This document shows positions 22,231 to 45,902 of a stretch of DNA of 52,879 nt, piece by piece. Location of the stretch: contig JADFQV010000011.1 in NCBI GenBank assembly GCA_022561635.1, forward strand, positions 1-52,879, given 5' to 3'. The first letter of the stretch is position 1, and every line of letters starts with the position of its first letter. Under the pieces are notes generated by a model. That model had not been told where the DNA came from. It did not search any database and saw only the letters and a list, made by a program, of their open reading frames with translations. The translations under genes were made by a program, and so were the position numbers. The stretch comes from Chloroflexota bacterium (GTDB taxonomy: Bacteria > Chloroflexota > Dehalococcoidia > SM23-28-2 > RBG-16-64-32).

Positions 22231-22261
22231 GCCTTGTTCCTCCCGTCCAGGCCCACGAAAA

Positions 22262-22284
22262 AACCCCTTCGGCAGGCCGAAAGG
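22262..22284 (-). terminator. Terminator-like hairpin with U-tract inside the panD 5' leader (candidate attenuator)
   Basis: Minus strand reads CCCTTTCGGCCTGCCGAAGGGGTTTTTTCG upstream of panD start. Confidence 0.7.
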
Positions 22285-22403
22285 GCACGGGATCGCGCGC
22301 TGAGCGCTCTATGTGCCGTCTCGGCCGTTATGGTCCAAGCGGGTCCTGGCGTCTGTTGGCCCTTGCGGGCATTTTGTGGCCGCCCCTAGAGGTCGGCGGA
22401 TTA

Positions 22404-22431
22404 AGTGTAGCAAAGGGGGGAAAGCTGTCAA
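22404..22431 (-). promoter_or_regulatory. Sigma70-like promoter for panD cluster / leader RNA
   Basis: Minus strand TTGACA (22431-22426), 16-nt spacer, TACACT (22409-22404). Confidence 0.65.
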
Positions 22432-22451: not shown

Positions 22452-22486
22452 AGAAAAAGGAGCCCCGTAGAAGGGGCTCCGTTTTC
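22452..22486 (-). terminator. Intrinsic terminator after the 61-aa gene (possibly bidirectional)
   Basis: GGAGCCCC-gtagaa-GGGGCTCC perfect 8-bp stem with TTTTTCTTT on the minus strand and GTTTTC on the plus strand. Confidence 0.85.
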
Positions 22487-22516: not shown

Positions 22517-22702
22517 TTAGAAACGGCCGGACGGGGAGTTGAAGCCCCGGAACGTGACCTGTTGGGTGACCGATCGGCGAGTGATCGAGAGGTCGATCAC
22601 TTCGCTGCGAACCTGGTTCGTTGACTGGGACTTGCCGTCGTGCTTAATGATGGCTGTCTTTGTCGGGTTGCCTTTCGGCTTGTGGCGAAACAGGTTCAGC
22701 AT
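22517..22702 (-). CDS. 61-aa hypothetical protein with C-terminal FRGFNSPSGRF motif
   Basis: Start MLNLFRHKPKGNPT with AAGGGAC RBS-like sequence; followed by terminator; C-term resembles that of the 942-aa protein at 40349-43177. Confidence 0.75.
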   Translation of the reverse strand: MLNLFRHKPKGNPTKTAIIKHDGKSQSTNQVRSEVIDLSITRRSVTQQVTFRGFNSPSGRF

Positions 22703-22906: not shown

Positions 22907-24151
22907 ATGCGAGAAGCAGTGCTCGTAGACATGATTCGAACGCCATTCGGCCGCGCCGGCCAGCGCGGTGTGTTCCGCGACATCTCGCACGTCGAGATGG
23001 TCGTGCCGCTGATGAAGAACGTCCTCGATCGCAACAACATAGGCGGCGAGGAAGTGGACGAAGTGCTGTGGGGCTCCGTCGGCATCGCCGGTATGCTCAC
23101 ACGCTCGCGGCTCTACGTGCTCGAAGCGGGCCTGCCGCACACGATCTCAGCGACGGACATGAACAAGCAGTGCGGGTCGTCGCTGCAGGCGAGCGCGCAG
23201 GCGGCGTTCGCGGTGATGGCCGGGATGTCGGACGTCGTGATCGCCGGTGGGGTGGAGACGATGGACCGGGTGAACCCTATCCCGCCCGGCGACGAGACGA
23301 ACCTGCAGCAGGTCCAGACGGCTGAGGTGATGGCGAAGGAGTTCCTGCAGCCGTGGCCGGACAAGGACAAGGCGCCGGTCTGGGCGAAGCGCTGGTACCA
23401 GGTAACGGAGCCCTGGATCATGGACATGGGCCAGACGGCGGAGAAGCTGGCCGCAGAGCGCGGTGTCTCGCGAGAGGACGCCGACCGGTTCTCGCTGGAG
23501 AGCCACAAGAAGACGATCCGCGCGCAGAAGGAAGGGCTGCTGGCGGACGAGATCAACCCGATCGAGATCTCCTACTCTGACGGTTCGAGCGTGACGGTGG
23601 ATACGGACCAGAACCCGCGCGAGAACACGTCCCTGGAGAAGCTGGCGAGTCTGAAGCCGGCATATACGGCTGACGGCCAGGTTACGGCGGGCAACGCGAG
23701 CCCGCGCACGGACGGGGCGACGATCTGCCTGATCATGGAGAAGGAGATGGCGAAGGAGAAAGGCCTGAAGCCGCTGGCGACGATCCGCCACGCGGCGTCC
23801 GTGGGGGTCGACCCGACGATCATGGGCATTGGCCCTGTGCCGGCGACGCAGAAGCTGCTGAAGCGCAGCGGGATGACGCTGGACGACTTCGACATCATCG
23901 AGATCAACGAGGCGTTCGCCTGCCAGGTGCTGGCCTGCGGCGCGGAGCTGAAGTGGGACTGGGACAAGGTGAACCCGAACGGCGGCGCGATCGCCATCGG
24001 TCACCCGCTGGGGGCGACGGGGACGCGGTTGATCGGGACGATCGCCTACGAGATGCGGCGCCGCGACGCGGAGTGGGGCCTGGTGACGCTGTGCATGGGC
24101 GCGGGGATGGGCATGTCGCTGGCGCTGCAGCGCGAGCACTACGACTGGTAG
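22907..24151 (+). CDS. Thiolase (acetyl-CoA C-acyltransferase) family protein
   Basis: VDMIRTPFGRAGQRGVFRD; NKQCGSSLQA catalytic Cys region; EINEAFACQVLA; NPNGGAIAIGHPLGATGTRL; CMGAGMGMSL. Confidence 0.95.
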   Translation: MREAVLVDMIRTPFGRAGQRGVFRDISHVEMVVPLMKNVLDRNNIGGEEVDEVLWGSVGIAGMLTRSRLYVLEAGLPHTISATDMNKQCGSSLQASAQAAFAVMAGMSDVVIAGGVETMDRVNPIPPGDETNLQQVQTAEVMAKEFLQPWPDKDKAPVWAKRWYQVTEPWIMDMGQTAEKLAAERGVSREDADRFSLESHKKTIRAQKEGLLADEINPIEISYSDGSSVTVDTDQNPRENTSLEKLASLKPAYTADGQVTAGNASPRTDGATICLIMEKEMAKEKGLKPLATIRHAASVGVDPTIMGIGPVPATQKLLKRSGMTLDDFDIIEINEAFACQVLACGAELKWDWDKVNPNGGAIAIGHPLGATGTRLIGTIAYEMRRRDAEWGLVTLCMGAGMGMSLALQREHYDW

Positions 24152-24330: not shown

Positions 24331-25326
24331 ATGGAGGCGAGAAGGCAACCGTGGTCAGTTAAGAACGAGCCGCTGATCGGAGGGCTGGCGATCGCCGCGA
24401 TCATGGTCGCGATCTTCTCGGCGACCGGTTGGTGGTTGGCCGGAGCTGAAGAGCGCACCGAAACAGCTCGGCAAGAGACCGGCCGGAGGATCGTGCGTCC
24501 AGCGCGAGCCCAGATGGTGGCTCTAAGGAGCGCCTTCGGGGCCGGCCCCGCCGCGGCGGTGGGGGCCATACAAGAGGACCCCGATGAGCCAGCGGCAGCC
24601 GCGATACTGCCGTTGGATGCGCTTTCCTCGGAGGCGGCAGATTACGCGGCGGGGCTTCCCTGCTGCGTGTCTATCGCGGTGGTGGTGCCGGAAGAGGGGT
24701 TGGCTTATGAATTCGAAGGTGACGTTACCTCGCCCCTCTTGAGCGTGGCGAAAGTGCCGATCATGACGATGGTTCTGGGCCAGGCGATCGAGGACGGCCG
24801 AGAGCTGACCGCGACGGAGAGTGAGCTGCTGAGCTTGATGATCCGGTCCAGTGACAACGAGGCAGCGTACTCGCTCTGGTACGCCATGGGAGGCGCAGAG
24901 GCGATGGTCGCTCTGTTCGAGTCGGTGGGTCTGGGCAGCATCACGACCTATGCGGACAGCTGGGGATCGACGCTTGCCTCGCCGCTGCAGATGGCGAGCC
25001 TGCTGGCGATGATCGTGCAAGGCGATGTACTGGACGAAGCGGCCCGTATGACGGCGATGGACGTTCTCTCGGCGGTCGACCCGTCCCAGGCCTGGGGGGC
25101 TCTTTCCGGTACAGAAGGGCTGGTGACAGAGACTGGCGTCAAGAACGGCTGGTACCCGGAGCCGAGCGGGTGGTCCCTGAACAGCCTGGCGTATGTGGCG
25201 CCCGACGATGGGGCCGCGTACACAATGGCGATTTTCACGCAGGGCAGCGCGATCATGTCAGATGGCATTGCGACGATCGAGGAGATCGCCCGCGCCATCA
25301 ACGAGCAGATGCTCCTGAGATTCTAG
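24331..25326 (+). CDS. Membrane-anchored serine hydrolase, class A beta-lactamase-like
   Basis: N-terminal TM; LLSVAKVPIM (SxxK), SSDNEAAYSLW (SDN), KNGWYPE. Confidence 0.82.
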   Translation: MEARRQPWSVKNEPLIGGLAIAAIMVAIFSATGWWLAGAEERTETARQETGRRIVRPARAQMVALRSAFGAGPAAAVGAIQEDPDEPAAAAILPLDALSSEAADYAAGLPCCVSIAVVVPEEGLAYEFEGDVTSPLLSVAKVPIMTMVLGQAIEDGRELTATESELLSLMIRSSDNEAAYSLWYAMGGAEAMVALFESVGLGSITTYADSWGSTLASPLQMASLLAMIVQGDVLDEAARMTAMDVLSAVDPSQAWGALSGTEGLVTETGVKNGWYPEPSGWSLNSLAYVAPDDGAAYTMAIFTQGSAIMSDGIATIEEIARAINEQMLLRF

Positions 25327-39476: not shown

Positions 39477-40298
39477 ATGCCTGAGCTGCCGGAAGTGGAG
39501 ACGATACGGCGTGACCTCGTGCCCCTCTTGCGAGGGAGGACAGTACGTGACGCCTGGATCTCGCCGAACGCGCCGCGGCTGGCGCAGCTGATGACGCCAG
39601 AGGCGTTCTGCCGCGGCCTGCGCGGACGGCGAATCGAGGACGTGGGGCGGCGAGGGAAGTATCTGCTGATCCACCTCGACGGCGGTCTGACGTGGATCGT
39701 GCACCTGCGGATGACGGGGCGGCTGCAGCATGCGCGAGAGGGCTGCCCAGACGACCGGCATCTGCGGGCGAAGTTCAAGCTGGACGACGGCGGCTGGTTG
39801 TGCTTCATCGACATGCGCAAGTTCGGGACGATGTGGCTCGTCGACGACGTGGATCTGGTGACGGGGAAGCTGGGGCCGGAGCCGCTGGATGAGACGTTCG
39901 ACGTGGCGGCGTTTCACGGCTCGCTGAAGCGGCGGAGCACGGCGATTAAGGCGGTGTTGCTGGATCAGACGGTTCTGGCGGGCGTGGGCAACATCTACGC
40001 GGACGAATCGCTGTTTCGGGCGGGCATCGACCCCCGCAGGGCGGCGAACCGGATCTCGCGACCGGCGGCGGGGAGGCTGCACGAGGCGATCGTCGAGGTG
40101 CTGCTGGAGGCGGTGGGAGACCGGGGATCGAGCTTCCAGGACTACGTCGATGCGCGGGGCGAGGCCGGGTATTACCACCTGAAGGTGCGCGTGTTCCGGC
40201 GAACCGACGAGCCATGCCTTGTCTGCGGGACGGCGATCCGCCGCGTAAAGGTGGGCGGGCGCAGCACGCACTTCTGCCCAGGGTGCCAGAAGCGCTGA
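39477..40298 (+). CDS. mutM: Formamidopyrimidine-DNA glycosylase
   Basis: MPELPEVETIRRDL; KAVLLDQTVLAGVGNIYADE; C-terminal zinc finger CLVCGTAIRRVKVGGRSTHFCPGCQ. Confidence 0.97.
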   Translation: MPELPEVETIRRDLVPLLRGRTVRDAWISPNAPRLAQLMTPEAFCRGLRGRRIEDVGRRGKYLLIHLDGGLTWIVHLRMTGRLQHAREGCPDDRHLRAKFKLDDGGWLCFIDMRKFGTMWLVDDVDLVTGKLGPEPLDETFDVAAFHGSLKRRSTAIKAVLLDQTVLAGVGNIYADESLFRAGIDPRRAANRISRPAAGRLHEAIVEVLLEAVGDRGSSFQDYVDARGEAGYYHLKVRVFRRTDEPCLVCGTAIRRVKVGGRSTHFCPGCQKR

Positions 40299-40348: not shown

Positions 40349-43177
40349 TTAGAAGCGGCCCGGCGGAGAGTCGAAGCTAGCGAACGGGCCTTTCTTGGCG
40401 GTGAAGCGGCCAGACTCGCGGAAGCGCCAAGTCTCGATAGCGGCAGCCGTCTCCTCGGCCGTGAGCCCCTCGTCGAGGGTATTCGACGTCGCAGCGGCAG
40501 CCTGTTCGGCGACCGTCCCTTTAGTGGGGGCCCTTGGAGCTGACTTGGGCTTGCCGTGACCGGCCTTGACCTTGGCCGGCTTCGCTGCGCCCTTCACGTT
40601 TGTGCTCTCTTTCGCTGACTCCGGCTTGGTGTTCTTCGCCACCGGCGCGGCAGGCGCTGACACGGTCGCGCCCGTGGCGGCCTCGACGGCCTGCTCGGCG
40701 GCCTCACTGGCGGCGGAGGCGACCTCTGGGCCCTTCGCCTTGCGGATAGCCGCGGTCACGGCCTTCATCGTCTTGTCGTCCAGGCCAGCCTGGGCGATGC
40801 GCACCTGGGCCTCCGCCACAGTGGCCTCGTTGAGCGCCAGCGCGGCGTTGTTCCAGGCCCGGCTCGCGGCGATCTCCCTGAGCCTGATCGGCACCGCCGT
40901 GGCGATGGCGACGGCGAAGGCGTTCCAGATGACGACGCTGCGATCGTGGCACACCTTCGCGGCGATGGCGTCTCCGAAGGCGACGGCGACAGCGTCCCAG
41001 GCGGCGATCGCGACGTCGCGGCGCTGACTTGCAGCGGCGGCCTCGGTAAGGGCCGTCGTCAGCCGCAGCCATGCCTGGCGGTAGGCCATCTGACGGACGA
41101 GGCAAGCCTGCGCAGCGTTCAGGCAGGCCCTTGCGATGTTGCGCCAGGCCCGAAGGAGCTTCTTCTGTTCGAGGTTGACGAGGGCGCCGTCGGCGAGTGC
41201 GAGCGTAAGGCTGTGCCAGGCGGCAAGCGCCCTGTTGTGACGCATCTGGGCGTCGGCGGAGTCGTGCAGCGCGCTGGCCGCGGCCTGCCAGGCGGCGACC
41301 ATGCGGTCGTGGTGGACTTTCGCGGCGGCGCCGGCGGACAGCGCTTCGGAGGCGTTTGCCCAGGCCCTGGCCGCGGTATCGCGCCGGACCTGCATGTCGG
41401 CGACGACGAGCATCTCAAGCGCCAGTACACGCCAGGCGCGGGCGAGCCCGTCGCGACGCGCGGTGGCGTCGACTGCTTCACCGATGGCGGCAGCGAGCCG
41501 AGCCCAGGCAGCGACGAGCCCATCGTGGTTAAGTTTGGCCGCGGTGTACTCGTCTAGTGCGATGCTGATGTTGGCCCAGGCAACGACGCTCCGCTCGTGA
41601 CGGAACGTGGCGACGGTGGCCTCGGCAAGGCATCTGCCGATCGAAGACCAGGCGAAGGCGAGTCCGGCGCGGCGGGCCTCGTGGGCCTTAGCGGCGTCGA
41701 GAGAGGCGACGGCCAGGCGCTGCCATGCCGTGCGCATTCCGCGATCGATGGCGTCCTGCGCGATGGCGGCGAGCGATACGGCGCTAGTGGCCGTGGACCA
41801 GGCCTGTTCGGCGATCTTTTTATCCTGCAGCCGCGCCGCGTAGACGCCTTCCTCGAGCGTCCAGGAGATGTTGGCCCAGGCCCGGCGCATGGCGCGGCGG
41901 CCAGACTTGCTCTCGGCGGCCTGGCGGAAGGAGAGGGCGATATTGCGCCAGGCTGTGGCGAGGCCGCGCTTACGCGCTGCCTGTATCGCCGCCCCGGCGT
42001 AGAGGGCCTCGCTGATTGCCCGCCAGGCCATGAGCAGGCGAACGCTGGCAGCGGCGGCGAGAGCGGTGGTGAGGCGGCGCCAGGCGATGGTGGCGCTGAC
42101 GCGGCGAGCGACGTGGGCGTCGATCGCACTGTCGATCGCGGCGCCGATGTTCGACCAGGCGGCGATGATGCCGCTTGCGGTCTCGTCCGATGCTTCGATC
42201 AGAGCTTCAGGCGCGGCGTGAAAGCCGTTGGTTGTGGGGCCTTCGGGGCTCCGCCGGAAGTCTGAGAGGGTGGTTAGCGTTTCCGGGTCGCGCCTGCCGC
42301 CAAAGACGTCGCCAAGGTTGACGTGCACTGTCTCGTGAGCGGCGTTTGCGGCGCCGTTTCCAGCGTCTGAGGGTACATCCGCTGGCTCGGCAGCGTCCTC
42401 CGGCAGGTCCGGCTCGCCGGCCGGCTGCGGCGAGTGCGATGCGGCGCGCAGGCCCTTCGCCTCGAGGATGTCGATGACGTTAGAGGTATCCGCGTCGTCG
42501 ATCGCCTTGTGTGCCGCTTCCTCGGCGGCTTCCGGCTTGTCGGCGGCCTGTGGCTCGTCGGAAACGAACTCCGGCGGACGGACGGGCGGCGTCTCGACGA
42601 TGTGCGTTTGGCTCGCGGTAGTCTCGTCGTGATCGGGCGCTGCGAGCGGTGAGGGCGCAGTAAGGGGTGCATCGCCATTCGCGGCGGGCTCGCGCGCGGG
42701 CGCCTTGCTGGGGCTGACGGTGATCTCGCCCCAATGGTTGGCCGTCGCCTCAGCGGGCACGGCCCAGAAGATGGCCGTCTGGTTCAGGTCGAGGCCGGCC
42801 TTCATCTCGTGCCGGACGAAGTCGTAGGCGGAGTCGAGATCGACGAATGAGAAGGTGTAGACGACTCCCGGGCGGCTGGGGTCGCGGATGAGGACGACCG
42901 GCTCTGCTTCAACGTCCCGGTGGCCGTTGTCCGACGGCCGCCAGGTGAGGGCCCAGAACATGATGGTGCCTTCCTGAACGTCGCCGCGGAGGATCGAGAC
43001 GAGGTACGCCTCGGCGTCACTGGCGGCGATGAAGGTGTGCTGCTGATAGGTGGCGATGCCTGAGGCGTCCGGCATCAGCATCATCAGATTTGCGGTCGTT
43101 GGCTGGACCGGCATGGTGGCGACAGCCGGTTCCTTATCACTCCCTTTGCGGGAGAAGAGATTCCTTACTATGCCCAT
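40349..43177 (-). CDS. 942-aa protein: N-terminal duplicated alpha/beta domain, linker, 19 Trp-anchored ~24-aa helical repeats, C-terminal FASFDSPPGRF motif
   Basis: Repeat consensus AWxxhxxALxxAxxAxxxRRxxhhx seen directly; repeat Trp codons at ~72-nt spacing from 42160 down to 40853. Confidence 0.9.
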   Translation of the reverse strand: MGIVRNLFSRKGSDKEPAVATMPVQPTTANLMMLMPDASGIATYQQHTFIAASDAEAYLVSILRGDVQEGTIMFWALTWRPSDNGHRDVEAEPVVLIRDPSRPGVVYTFSFVDLDSAYDFVRHEMKAGLDLNQTAIFWAVPAEATANHWGEITVSPSKAPAREPAANGDAPLTAPSPLAAPDHDETTASQTHIVETPPVRPPEFVSDEPQAADKPEAAEEAAHKAIDDADTSNVIDILEAKGLRAASHSPQPAGEPDLPEDAAEPADVPSDAGNGAANAAHETVHVNLGDVFGGRRDPETLTTLSDFRRSPEGPTTNGFHAAPEALIEASDETASGIIAAWSNIGAAIDSAIDAHVARRVSATIAWRRLTTALAAAASVRLLMAWRAISEALYAGAAIQAARKRGLATAWRNIALSFRQAAESKSGRRAMRRAWANISWTLEEGVYAARLQDKKIAEQAWSTATSAVSLAAIAQDAIDRGMRTAWQRLAVASLDAAKAHEARRAGLAFAWSSIGRCLAEATVATFRHERSVVAWANISIALDEYTAAKLNHDGLVAAWARLAAAIGEAVDATARRDGLARAWRVLALEMLVVADMQVRRDTAARAWANASEALSAGAAAKVHHDRMVAAWQAAASALHDSADAQMRHNRALAAWHSLTLALADGALVNLEQKKLLRAWRNIARACLNAAQACLVRQMAYRQAWLRLTTALTEAAAASQRRDVAIAAWDAVAVAFGDAIAAKVCHDRSVVIWNAFAVAIATAVPIRLREIAASRAWNNAALALNEATVAEAQVRIAQAGLDDKTMKAVTAAIRKAKGPEVASAASEAAEQAVEAATGATVSAPAAPVAKNTKPESAKESTNVKGAAKPAKVKAGHGKPKSAPRAPTKGTVAEQAAAATSNTLDEGLTAEETAAAIETWRFRESGRFTAKKGPFASFDSPPGRF

Positions 43178-43319: not shown

Positions 43320-44306
43320 TCAGGCGGACGGCCACTCGGAGGCCGAGGGAACGCCGGCCAGGCCGGTCGCCGTCTGAACGGCGCGGACGACGGCGCGTTC
43401 GACGGCGCGGGCGGCGAGAGTTCCGAGCTGGACGAGATCGGTCTCGGCGGCGCTGGCGCCGGTGGCGAGAGCGAAGATGATGTCGCCGTCGACAGGGGTG
43501 TTCACGGGGCGGATGGCGCGCGCCATCCCGGCGTGTGCCATCGCCGCCAGGCGCGCGCAGTCTTCTTTGGTCAGGGCAGCGTCTGTGGCGATGACGCCGA
43601 GGGTGCTGTTCTCCGACGCGTAGGGTGAGAGCGGCGGACGGGCGCGCACGGTTTCGATCGTGTCGGTGAAGCCGCGCTCTTCGGCGCGAGGGCCGGCGAC
43701 GACGCGCGCCGTGTCGGGGTCGACGACTTCACCCCAGGCGTTGACGGCCATGAGGGCAGCGAGCGCAACACCGGAGGCCGTGCGCTCGACGGCGGTGCCG
43801 ATGCCGCCCTGGACGGCGTGCTGCATGTCGAGCGCCTTGCCGACGGTGGCGCCGGTGCCCGCGCCGACCGTTCCTTCCGCGACGGGCCCCGCCGTCGCCG
43901 CTTCGCAGGCAGCGTATCCGGCGGCGGCATCCGGGCGGCTGTCGGACGATCCGAGGGCGAGGTCGAAGAGAGCGGCGGCCGAGACGATGGGGACGACACC
44001 GCTGCGCACAGGGAAGCCATGGCCGTGCTCCTCAAGCCAGCGCATGACGCCGGCGGCGGCGTCGAGGCCGAAGGCGCTGCCGCCTGACAGGAGCACACCG
44101 TGGACACGGTCGACGAGGTTACCGGGGCGCAGAACGTCAGTCTCACGCGTGGCCGGTGCGCCGCCGCGGACGTCGACGGAGGCGACAGCGCCGGCCGGGC
44201 AAAGGACGACGGTGCAGCCGGTGGCGGCGCTAAGATCGGTCCAATGGCCGACGAGCAGACCCTTTATGGCGGTAATTCCGGCGATTTCGGGCGATTCTGC
44301 ATCCAT
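43320..44306 (-). CDS. P1 family (DmpA/S58-type) peptidase
   Basis: TDLSAATGCTVVLCPAGAVASVDVRGGAPATRETDVL; GVLLSGGSAFGLDAAAGVMRWLEE; ANTPVDGD-like NTPVDGDIIFALATG. Confidence 0.92.
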   Translation of the reverse strand: MDAESPEIAGITAIKGLLVGHWTDLSAATGCTVVLCPAGAVASVDVRGGAPATRETDVLRPGNLVDRVHGVLLSGGSAFGLDAAAGVMRWLEEHGHGFPVRSGVVPIVSAAALFDLALGSSDSRPDAAAGYAACEAATAGPVAEGTVGAGTGATVGKALDMQHAVQGGIGTAVERTASGVALAALMAVNAWGEVVDPDTARVVAGPRAEERGFTDTIETVRARPPLSPYASENSTLGVIATDAALTKEDCARLAAMAHAGMARAIRPVNTPVDGDIIFALATGASAAETDLVQLGTLAARAVERAVVRAVQTATGLAGVPSASEWPSA

Positions 44307-44398: not shown

Positions 44399-45136
44399 AT
44401 GTCATTCTTCACAGAAGCCTCGCTCCCGCGAAAGGCAGTTCTCGTGCTGGGTGGGCTGGCCTTCTTCGTCGGCCTGGGCCTGATCGCGGTCGCCGGGCTG
44501 TCAGCTTTCAGCGGTGAGAGCGAGCCCAACGTCGAGCTGCGGGACCTGGGCGAGGTGCCGATCGTCGTCCCGAGCGACACGCCGACGTCGGCGCCAGTCA
44601 CCGAGACGCCAGCGCCGACGCCTGTGCCCGAGCCGCTGCTGGAACAGGGCTCGTACCAGATGATCATCGACGCGCTGGGCGTCAACGCGCAGGTGAACAC
44701 TTACGGCCTGGACCCGAACGCCGTGCCGGAGGTGCCGACGGGGCCGGGGGCAGCCGATGTCGTGGCCTGGTACAACTTCTCGGCAGAGCCGGGCACGGGG
44801 AGCAACGCCGTGTTTGCGGGGCATGTGACGTGGTTCGGCAACGCCGTGTTCCGGAATCTCGAAGCGATGGCGAACGGTGACGAGATCAGGCTGCTGGGAG
44901 CGGACGGGACGCAGCTCACATACGTGGTGAGCGATGTCTTCAAGGTGGATGCGAACGACCCCGAATCGCTGCAAGTGATGCGCGCGACGGACGAGGACGT
45001 GATCACGATCATCACTTGCAACGGCACCTTCGTCGACACGGGCGACCCGGTCTACGGTGGAGAGTACCCGCTCCGGCTCGTTGTGCGGGCTGCGCTGGCA
45101 GAGACCTTGCCGGGCGCGGTCAGCGCCGGCGGCTGA
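44399..45136 (+). CDS. Sortase (class D/E/F-like)
   Basis: VFAGHVTWFGNAVFRNLEAMANGDEIRL; VITIITCNGTF (TxxC). Confidence 0.9.
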   Translation: MSFFTEASLPRKAVLVLGGLAFFVGLGLIAVAGLSAFSGESEPNVELRDLGEVPIVVPSDTPTSAPVTETPAPTPVPEPLLEQGSYQMIIDALGVNAQVNTYGLDPNAVPEVPTGPGAADVVAWYNFSAEPGTGSNAVFAGHVTWFGNAVFRNLEAMANGDEIRLLGADGTQLTYVVSDVFKVDANDPESLQVMRATDEDVITIITCNGTFVDTGDPVYGGEYPLRLVVRAALAETLPGAVSAGG

Positions 45137-45212: not shown

Positions 45213-45902
45213 ATGCCGTCACAACGCACCCCATCCCGCTATAAGTACACCGGCAAGCGACGCCTGTACGTGATACTGTCGTCGCTGTTTCTGCTCGCCG
45301 GTTTCGGGATGATCGGCGTGGCCACGTATGAGTTCGCCTACCAGGGGAACGACCCGACACAGCTGATCTGGGTGCGACCCGGCGAGCCGGTAGCGCCGGC
45401 GACCGCAGACGGAAGCCAATCGCCACCGCAGGCGCAAACCGTCGGCACCGAGCCCTTTCGGCTGGTGATCGACAAGATCGGCGTTGATGCGCCGGTATCC
45501 ATGTTCGGACTGGACACGAACGCCTTGCCGCTTGTGCCGTACGACGCTGACCTCGTGGCGTGGTACAACTTCTCCTCCTATCCGGGCGACGGAGATAATG
45601 CGGTGTTTGCCGGGCACGTGACGTGGAACGGCGACGCGGTGTTCAAGCGGTTGGGCGAGCTAGGGAACGGCGACCGCATTCGCATCCAGCGCGAGGACGG
45701 CAGCAACCTGATCTATGAGGTGACGGAGGTCGTGCTGATAGAGCCGGGCGACCCGACGGCGCTGGACTGGATGCGACCCGCCGGTGAGGACGTGGTGACG
45801 CTGATCACCTGCGGCGGCCAGAGATTTCTGACGGATGACATCGTCGGTGCCGACTATACGCACCGGCAGATCATCCGCGGGCGTTTGATAGCGGCTGCGT
45901 GA
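45213..45902 (+). CDS. Sortase (class D/E/F-like), paralogue
   Basis: VFAGHVTWNGDAVFKRLGELGNGDRIRI; VVTLITCGGQRF. Confidence 0.9.
   Translation: MPSQRTPSRYKYTGKRRLYVILSSLFLLAGFGMIGVATYEFAYQGNDPTQLIWVRPGEPVAPATADGSQSPPQAQTVGTEPFRLVIDKIGVDAPVSMFGLDTNALPLVPYDADLVAWYNFSSYPGDGDNAVFAGHVTWNGDAVFKRLGELGNGDRIRIQREDGSNLIYEVTEVVLIEPGDPTALDWMRPAGEDVVTLITCGGQRFLTDDIVGADYTHRQIIRGRLIAAA

Follow-up and report, generated by a model that had tools for sequence, protein, structure and literature searches.

A strictly conserved C-terminal module of scaffold-like and very small proteins, confined to one bacterial family

We describe a protein tail that is a strictly conserved end-module on about 35 scaffold-like and tiny proteins and is found only in one bacterial family. 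Two of its carriers, of 61 and 942 aa, are encoded in the window, the whole stretch of 52,879 nucleotides analysed here, which comes from a draft genome of 1.81 Mb that is 84%-complete. We name the module the PPGRF tail. By analogy with known C-terminal tips, we lean towards the reading that it is a cytoplasmic docking tag, shared by tether-like proteins with a domain that we name FWAL and by microproteins that possess little besides the tail.

The tail and its distribution

The 61-aa protein ends with FRGFNSPSGRF and the 942-aa protein with FASFDSPPGRF, in both cases before a TAA stop. Thus, translation bears out the common motif F-x-x-F-[DN]-S-P-x-G-R-F-stop, which an earlier note on this DNA had pointed out. 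The PPGRF tail is defined here as F.[SW]P.G[RK]F-stop with F at −11 and G or S at −9, and both window proteins have this arrangement. The tags are located as follows.

22520..22555, minus strand: C-terminal tag of the microprotein, last 12 residues TFRGFNSPSGRF (from translation, pattern and tail comparison)
40352..40387, minus strand: C-terminal tag of the 942-aa protein, last 12 residues PFASFDSPPGRF
to about 40423, minus strand: extended tag of the 942-aa protein with its basic-aromatic lead-in (from comparison of tails)

The genome search proposed in the earlier note, run with a degenerate tail pattern, finds only these two places in the draft genome and nothing in the reversed control. 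With a slightly different pattern a third tagged protein appears in the same genome (G000:C22:3712-3741), ending in HGFGSPPGKF (...EEPFHGFGSPPGKF). Within the same family, 13 of 15 genomes have tails, with 31 matches and none in the reversed control (the pattern differs slightly from that of the genome scan), and the pattern scan finds none in the ten genomes from four other families of the order. Even with three mismatches allowed, a 39-base pattern has no control matches, hence the tails form a discrete set. In a scan of 85,488 species, one genome per species, 29 loci were found, 26 in Chloroflexota/Dehalococcoidia draft genomes and three elsewhere. The three loci outside Chloroflexota and five additional viral-contig matches are random frames. 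A chance origin of the tail is rejected by the empty reversed controls and by only three chance matches in 85,488 species, and a viral or plasmid origin is rejected since the five viral-contig matches are one random 12-aa frame with TGA. The motif therefore recurs at the C-terminus of many proteins in related genomes, which is the opposite of the outcome that would have spoken against the earlier note.

We aligned 35 distinct tails. Their last 24 residues approximate LLxx[KR]RWExR[ED]xPFxGFxSPPG[RK]F-stop. F(−1), G(−3), P(−5) and F(−8) are invariant (35/35), S(−6) and F(−11) are found in 34/35, R(−19) and G(−9) in 32/35, P(−12) in 28/35 and P(−4) in 27/35; position −2 is R or K. The conserved unit is thus about 20–24 aa long, so that the shared ending noted earlier stands, while the last eight residues are too short a description of it. 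The tails are basic (median net +4) and near-invariant, while all the sequence that precedes them diverges.

Synonymous codons are free to vary in the tails: S(−6) and P(−5) are each encoded by four different codons. The third codon positions differ freely among the 35 tails; selection therefore maintains the peptide and not the DNA, and the tail as a DNA element is ruled out. Stop codons are restricted: the tagged genes end only in UAA or UAG, i.e. the release-factor-1 stops, and TGA is used by 0/35 of them versus 52/136 other long ORFs at the same loci (Fisher P 6e-7, a value that is overstated as the tagged genes are related). In simple terms, the exact C-terminus, with its carboxylate, would matter and leaky stops would be avoided. 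The peptide with its free carboxyl end is …RRWEKREEPFHGFDSPPGKF-COOH.

Carriers of the tail and their loci

The carriers fall into two groups, FWAL proteins (group A) and microproteins (group B), both represented in the window.

40349..43177, minus strand: 942-aa tagged FWAL protein, MGIVRNLF...PFASFDSPPGRF, TAA stop (translation, paralogue search)
42686..43093, minus strand: FWAL domain, about residues 29–164, predicted EEHE-EEHEE fold, mean pLDDT 91.6
40787..42160, minus strand: spacer of about 19 tandem 24-residue repeats AWxxLxxALxxAAxAxxxxDxxxA, residues about 340–797
22517..22702, minus strand: 61-aa tagged microprotein gene, MLNLFRHKPKG...TFRGFNSPSGRF, TAA stop (translation, orthologues, synteny)
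22459..22480, minus strand: terminator-like hairpin followed by TTTTTC, 36 nt past the 61-aa stop, kept in G002 and G003

The members of group A are paralogues; a genome has up to six FWAL matches, and the tagged proteins are 300–942 aa long. They begin with a hydrophobic-then-basic N-terminus, continue with the ~130-aa FWAL domain (whose name, given here, refers to the conserved F-W-A-[LMF]) and a spacer, and close with the tail. Between the two conserved protein ends, the spacers are of unrelated types and lengths: some are acidic and disordered, others E/A/R-rich and coiled-coil-like, and the 942-aa protein has the 24-aa repeats. Even among orthologues of this protein the length varies (942, 877 and about 540 (541) aa). 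The carriers of the tag are many, and they are not a random unrelated set: they are one FWAL family and its apparent minimal derivatives. The N-termini, also proposed to be alike, are so loosely, being hydrophobic and then basic, and are not unusually amphipathic in comparison with shuffles. We do not claim an N-terminal amphipathic membrane anchor, as most of the proteins are indistinguishable from shuffles.

The FWAL domain has no match in Pfam or NCBIfam, and PHROGs and PADLOC profiles assign 0 families to both window proteins. The FWAL model finds nothing in the PDB and in a viral fold library at E ≤ 0.001; a sequence search of solved structures gives nothing meaningful, the best match being a nanobody with E 0.083. 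No match to FWAL was found in phages or plasmids. The domain is present in 14/15 family genomes, in 0/281 other genomes sampled from the class and in 0/398 sampled from the phylum, and its clade limit is that of the tail. FWAL domains are acidic, with a median net charge of −7.

A few FWAL proteins without the tail end in another module instead. In one of them (L045:1-2247, minus strand, G008; FWAL part nearly identical in G011) the domain is fused to a response-regulator receiver and a CpaE/ParA-like ATPase, which hints at a possible role of FWAL in the positioning of proteins. Another has a possible HTH below the Pfam cut-off (L049), and two have Yip1-like membrane domains, recognized by inspection in L054 and just below the Pfam cut-off in L057. 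The quick tree on gain and loss of the tail is weakly supported. In two genera (L087:7346-7614, minus strand; L088:4818-5087, plus strand), a small gene, named by eye as SelW/Rdx-like, lies convergent to a second FWAL paralogue.

In microproteins, of which the smallest has 48 aa, the tail is accompanied by a short N-terminus and in many cases by a helix-forming stretch. One of them (L156) keeps a FWAL-like N-terminus, MKWFGIGLRERR, without the FWAL domain. The 61-aa gene of the window is preceded by the RBS-like stretch GAAGGGAC. Its orthologues in G002 and G003 are 69% and 67% identical, and the locus and the tail are kept across genera, so that the ORF is conserved and not a spurious frame; lack of conservation is what the earlier note had named as a refutation. 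The start is supported by the RBS-like stretch and by small indels immediately before it, which disrupt any longer frame, and no indel falls inside the ORF. We regard the gene as real, with a caveat. Its dN/dS is about 0.9–1.2 within the genus, and the adjoining thiolase is under clear purifying selection (pN 0.02–0.03, pS 0.16–0.19). With a ratio near 1 the middle of the protein is under no constraint; what speaks for a function lies in the ends, which probably carry it.

The following neighbours of the two genes are conserved.

22907..24151, plus strand: thiolase, divergent from the microprotein gene (Pfam PF00108/PF02803; linkage conserved)
39477..40298, plus strand: mutM/fpg, formamidopyrimidine-DNA glycosylase, convergent with the FWAL gene (PF01149/PF06831/PF06827; linkage conserved)
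43320..44306, minus strand: S58-family peptidase, neighbour of the FWAL gene (Pfam PF03576; synteny)
44399..45136, plus strand: sortase 1 (Pfam PF04203; synteny)
45213..45902, plus strand: sortase 2 (Pfam PF04203; synteny)

The two genes had been described as distant, and in the window they are indeed 18 kb apart; in relatives they are neighbours. In L112 about 7 kb hold mutM, FWAL, S58 peptidase, sortase, thiolase and tagged microprotein in this order, and in L101 and L089 the FWAL and microprotein genes stand in tandem with the thiolase on one side and mutM on the other. The microprotein gene lies between thiolase and panD in genera g1, g2, g3 and g5, and in genus g4 it is on the same thiolase side, behind the FWAL gene. 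Two sortases and the S58 peptidase adjoin the FWAL gene across genera. As the two genes are neighbours in relatives, both appear to descend from one cluster, and we infer that the 18 kb separation in the window is most simply a rearranged form of it.

Other features were seen at these loci. In G014 a tagged microprotein (L094:1045-1206, minus strand) lies directly 3' of a gene named by eye as priA-like, a site that differs from the thiolase–panD position elsewhere. Downstream of the window thiolase, 24331-25326 of the plus strand encodes a Beta-lactamase2-family (PF13354) protein with an N-terminal hydrophobic segment. The leader before panD (22255-22431, minus strand) has a promoter-like TTGACA-16-TACACT (22431-22404), a strong fold (z −2.35) and, between the promoter and panD, a terminator-like hairpin with a T-run (22286-22263) that is kept in G002 and G003. 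It has no match in Rfam and is a candidate attenuator or riboswitch of the pantothenate operon.

Possible function of the tail

The tail consists of a basic-aromatic lead-in followed by PFxGFxSPPG[RK]F with its free carboxyl end, and we suggest that it is used in the cytoplasm. There, one common partner would most likely have a pocket that receives the invariant F, GF and SP together with the terminal G[RK]F-COOH. FWAL proteins would thus be tethered to this partner, with the spacer setting the distance, and microproteins would act as free ligands, competing for or adapting the same partner site. A candidate for the partner is the FWAL domain itself, which is acidic, in contrast to the basic tail, and shares its clade limit.

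The docking reading comes from the strictly kept free C-terminus, which follows a spacer of almost any kind. In the single-chain model FWAL is ordered, with pLDDT over 90, and the spacer is of low confidence, as expected for a tethered tail. Use in the cytoplasm is suggested by the lack of a hydrophobic C-terminal segment and by the fusion of FWAL elsewhere to the cytoplasmic CpaE/ParA-like ATPase. These observations retain one half of the original proposal of a short terminal address tag, namely a short conserved C-terminal tag outside any shared globular domain, and lend no support to the other half, i.e. secretion, cell-wall sorting or processing. Against a docking tag, the tail has low confidence in the single-chain model (pLDDT 51–54), the dN/dS of the 61-aa gene is near 1 within the genus, and the carriers are only FWAL proteins and microproteins and never unrelated enzymes, hence part of the spread of the tag is simple paralogy.

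A broader picture is conceivable, and we offer it tentatively. The family might possess its own cytoplasmic scaffold or compartment-organising system, where FWAL tethers with interchangeable spacers plug their PPGRF tails either into one hub or into the FWAL domains of one another, occupancy is controlled by tail-only microproteins, and the ATPase, HTH and membrane fusions link the system to positioning, gene control and the membrane.

An alternative, in which the tail binds the FWAL domain of the same or another member in a head-to-tail manner, would build a scaffold of variable mesh, with microproteins as chain terminators and the untagged FWAL fusions (CpaE-like ATPase, HTH, Yip1-like) as clients. 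It would account for the common clade limit of FWAL and tag, for the opposite charges (median net −7 and +4), for the location of tag-only proteins in FWAL genomes within the set examined and for the tandem genes of L101 and L089. However, the co-occurrence is partly trivial as both parts are on the same proteins, and the single-chain model that contains both leaves the tail undocked, a result of little weight given the shallow alignment of 16 sequences. We consider this assembly possible, although rather improbable.

Plain paralogy, where the tail is just the conserved C-terminus of one family and the microproteins are relics of domain loss with no separate tag function, agrees with the restriction to FWAL proteins and microproteins, with the FWAL-like N-terminus of L156 and with the dN/dS near 1 of the 61-aa gene in the genus. 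On the other hand, the tails are near-invariant where everything upstream of them diverges, and the microproteins of different genera occupy the same locus and have kept the tail, which is unexpected of relics and makes this explanation unlikely.

We give still less weight to a C-terminal degron, read by a protease or adaptor so that the tagged proteins are short-lived. The exact C-terminus is kept, its last residue is aromatic and TGA is avoided, as a degron would need. Typical C-degrons are short, though, and the consensus of 20–24 residues exceeds them in length and specificity; nor was a protease specific to the family identified.

The conserved sortase genes and S58 peptidase beside the FWAL gene bring to mind a secretion or cell-wall sorting signal read by the two sortases. 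We think this highly improbable, because the 31 tagged ORFs have no hydrophobic stretch in their last 60 aa (max KD19 0.95) and no LPxTG-type motif (one internal NPPT is taken as chance), so that the neighbouring sortases are not the readers of the tail by any known rule; in the window they are also divergent from the FWAL gene and not co-directional with it. Equally improbable is nascent-chain arrest at termination by PPG before a UAA/UAG stop: PPG is present in 27/35 tails and UAA/UAG are the sole stops, but P(−4) is replaceable by R, E, A or S, and in the window the terminator-like hairpin stands after the microprotein gene and a convergent gene after the FWAL gene, with no obvious regulated gene downstream. 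Finally, a peptide that loads cargo into a protein shell, either an encapsulin or a bacterial microcompartment, would resemble the tail in being a short conserved C-terminal peptide after a flexible linker, like encapsulin targeting peptides (PMC7925596), and is the least probable explanation, since encapsulin PF04454 occurs in 1/15 family genomes as one partial match (G007) and BMC shell PF00936 in 0/15 over the cut-off (two sub-threshold matches), which rules out both of these known shell types as a general receptor.

Comparison with known systems

Short C-terminal tags are one of the routes by which bacteria bring proteins to shared hubs. The C-terminal tip of SSB, one such tag, ends in Phe. 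It has 9 residues at the end of a disordered linker of 56 residues (PMC7145534), and its docking partners are many (PMC7145534, PMC10018359). The PPGRF tail is likewise a conserved C-terminal tip with a linker before it, and its docking is proposed by this analogy. However, the SSB tip is acidic, consists of a few residues and belongs to an OB-fold DNA-binding protein, whereas the PPGRF tail is basic, has about 20–24 residues and is found on FWAL proteins and microproteins of one family. The carriers have no Pfam match and the FWAL model has no library match at E ≤ 0.001, so that there is no sign of an OB-fold. In FtsZ a disordered linker is also followed by a conserved docking peptide (PMC12607630). 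Unlike FtsZ, the PPGRF carriers lack a tubulin domain or any Pfam match and comprise several paralogues and tail-only microproteins. Encapsulin targeting peptides are short, C-terminal and direct a protein to its partner (PMC7925596); in contrast to such cargo, the PPGRF proteins occur in a family where 14/15 genomes have no encapsulin.

LPXTG, PEP-CTERM and GlyGly-CTERM are conserved C-terminal signals on otherwise different proteins, as the PPGRF tail is. They need an exported protein and a hydrophobic segment, and the PPGRF proteins have no such segment. Pup and UBact are tiny disordered proteins with a conserved C-terminus. The microproteins are similarly tiny and conserved at the C-terminus, but all 35 tails end in G[RK]F instead of GGQ/GGE, and the same end is also found on proteins of 300–942 aa.

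None of the papers listed in a literature search describes the motif in bacteria, and the listed matches to the motif letters are unrelated. Thus, the kind is known, a C-terminal docking tag on a flexible linker, and the tag, its carriers and the FWAL domain are absent from the libraries searched. The SSB tip, the FtsZ peptide and the encapsulin peptides each opened up an interaction network. The PPGRF tag combines strict conservation, an orphan domain with no library fold, one uncultured family and natural tail-only proteins. Its receptor can be searched for directly with a 20-residue synthetic peptide, and this makes an otherwise unstudied cell biology testable.
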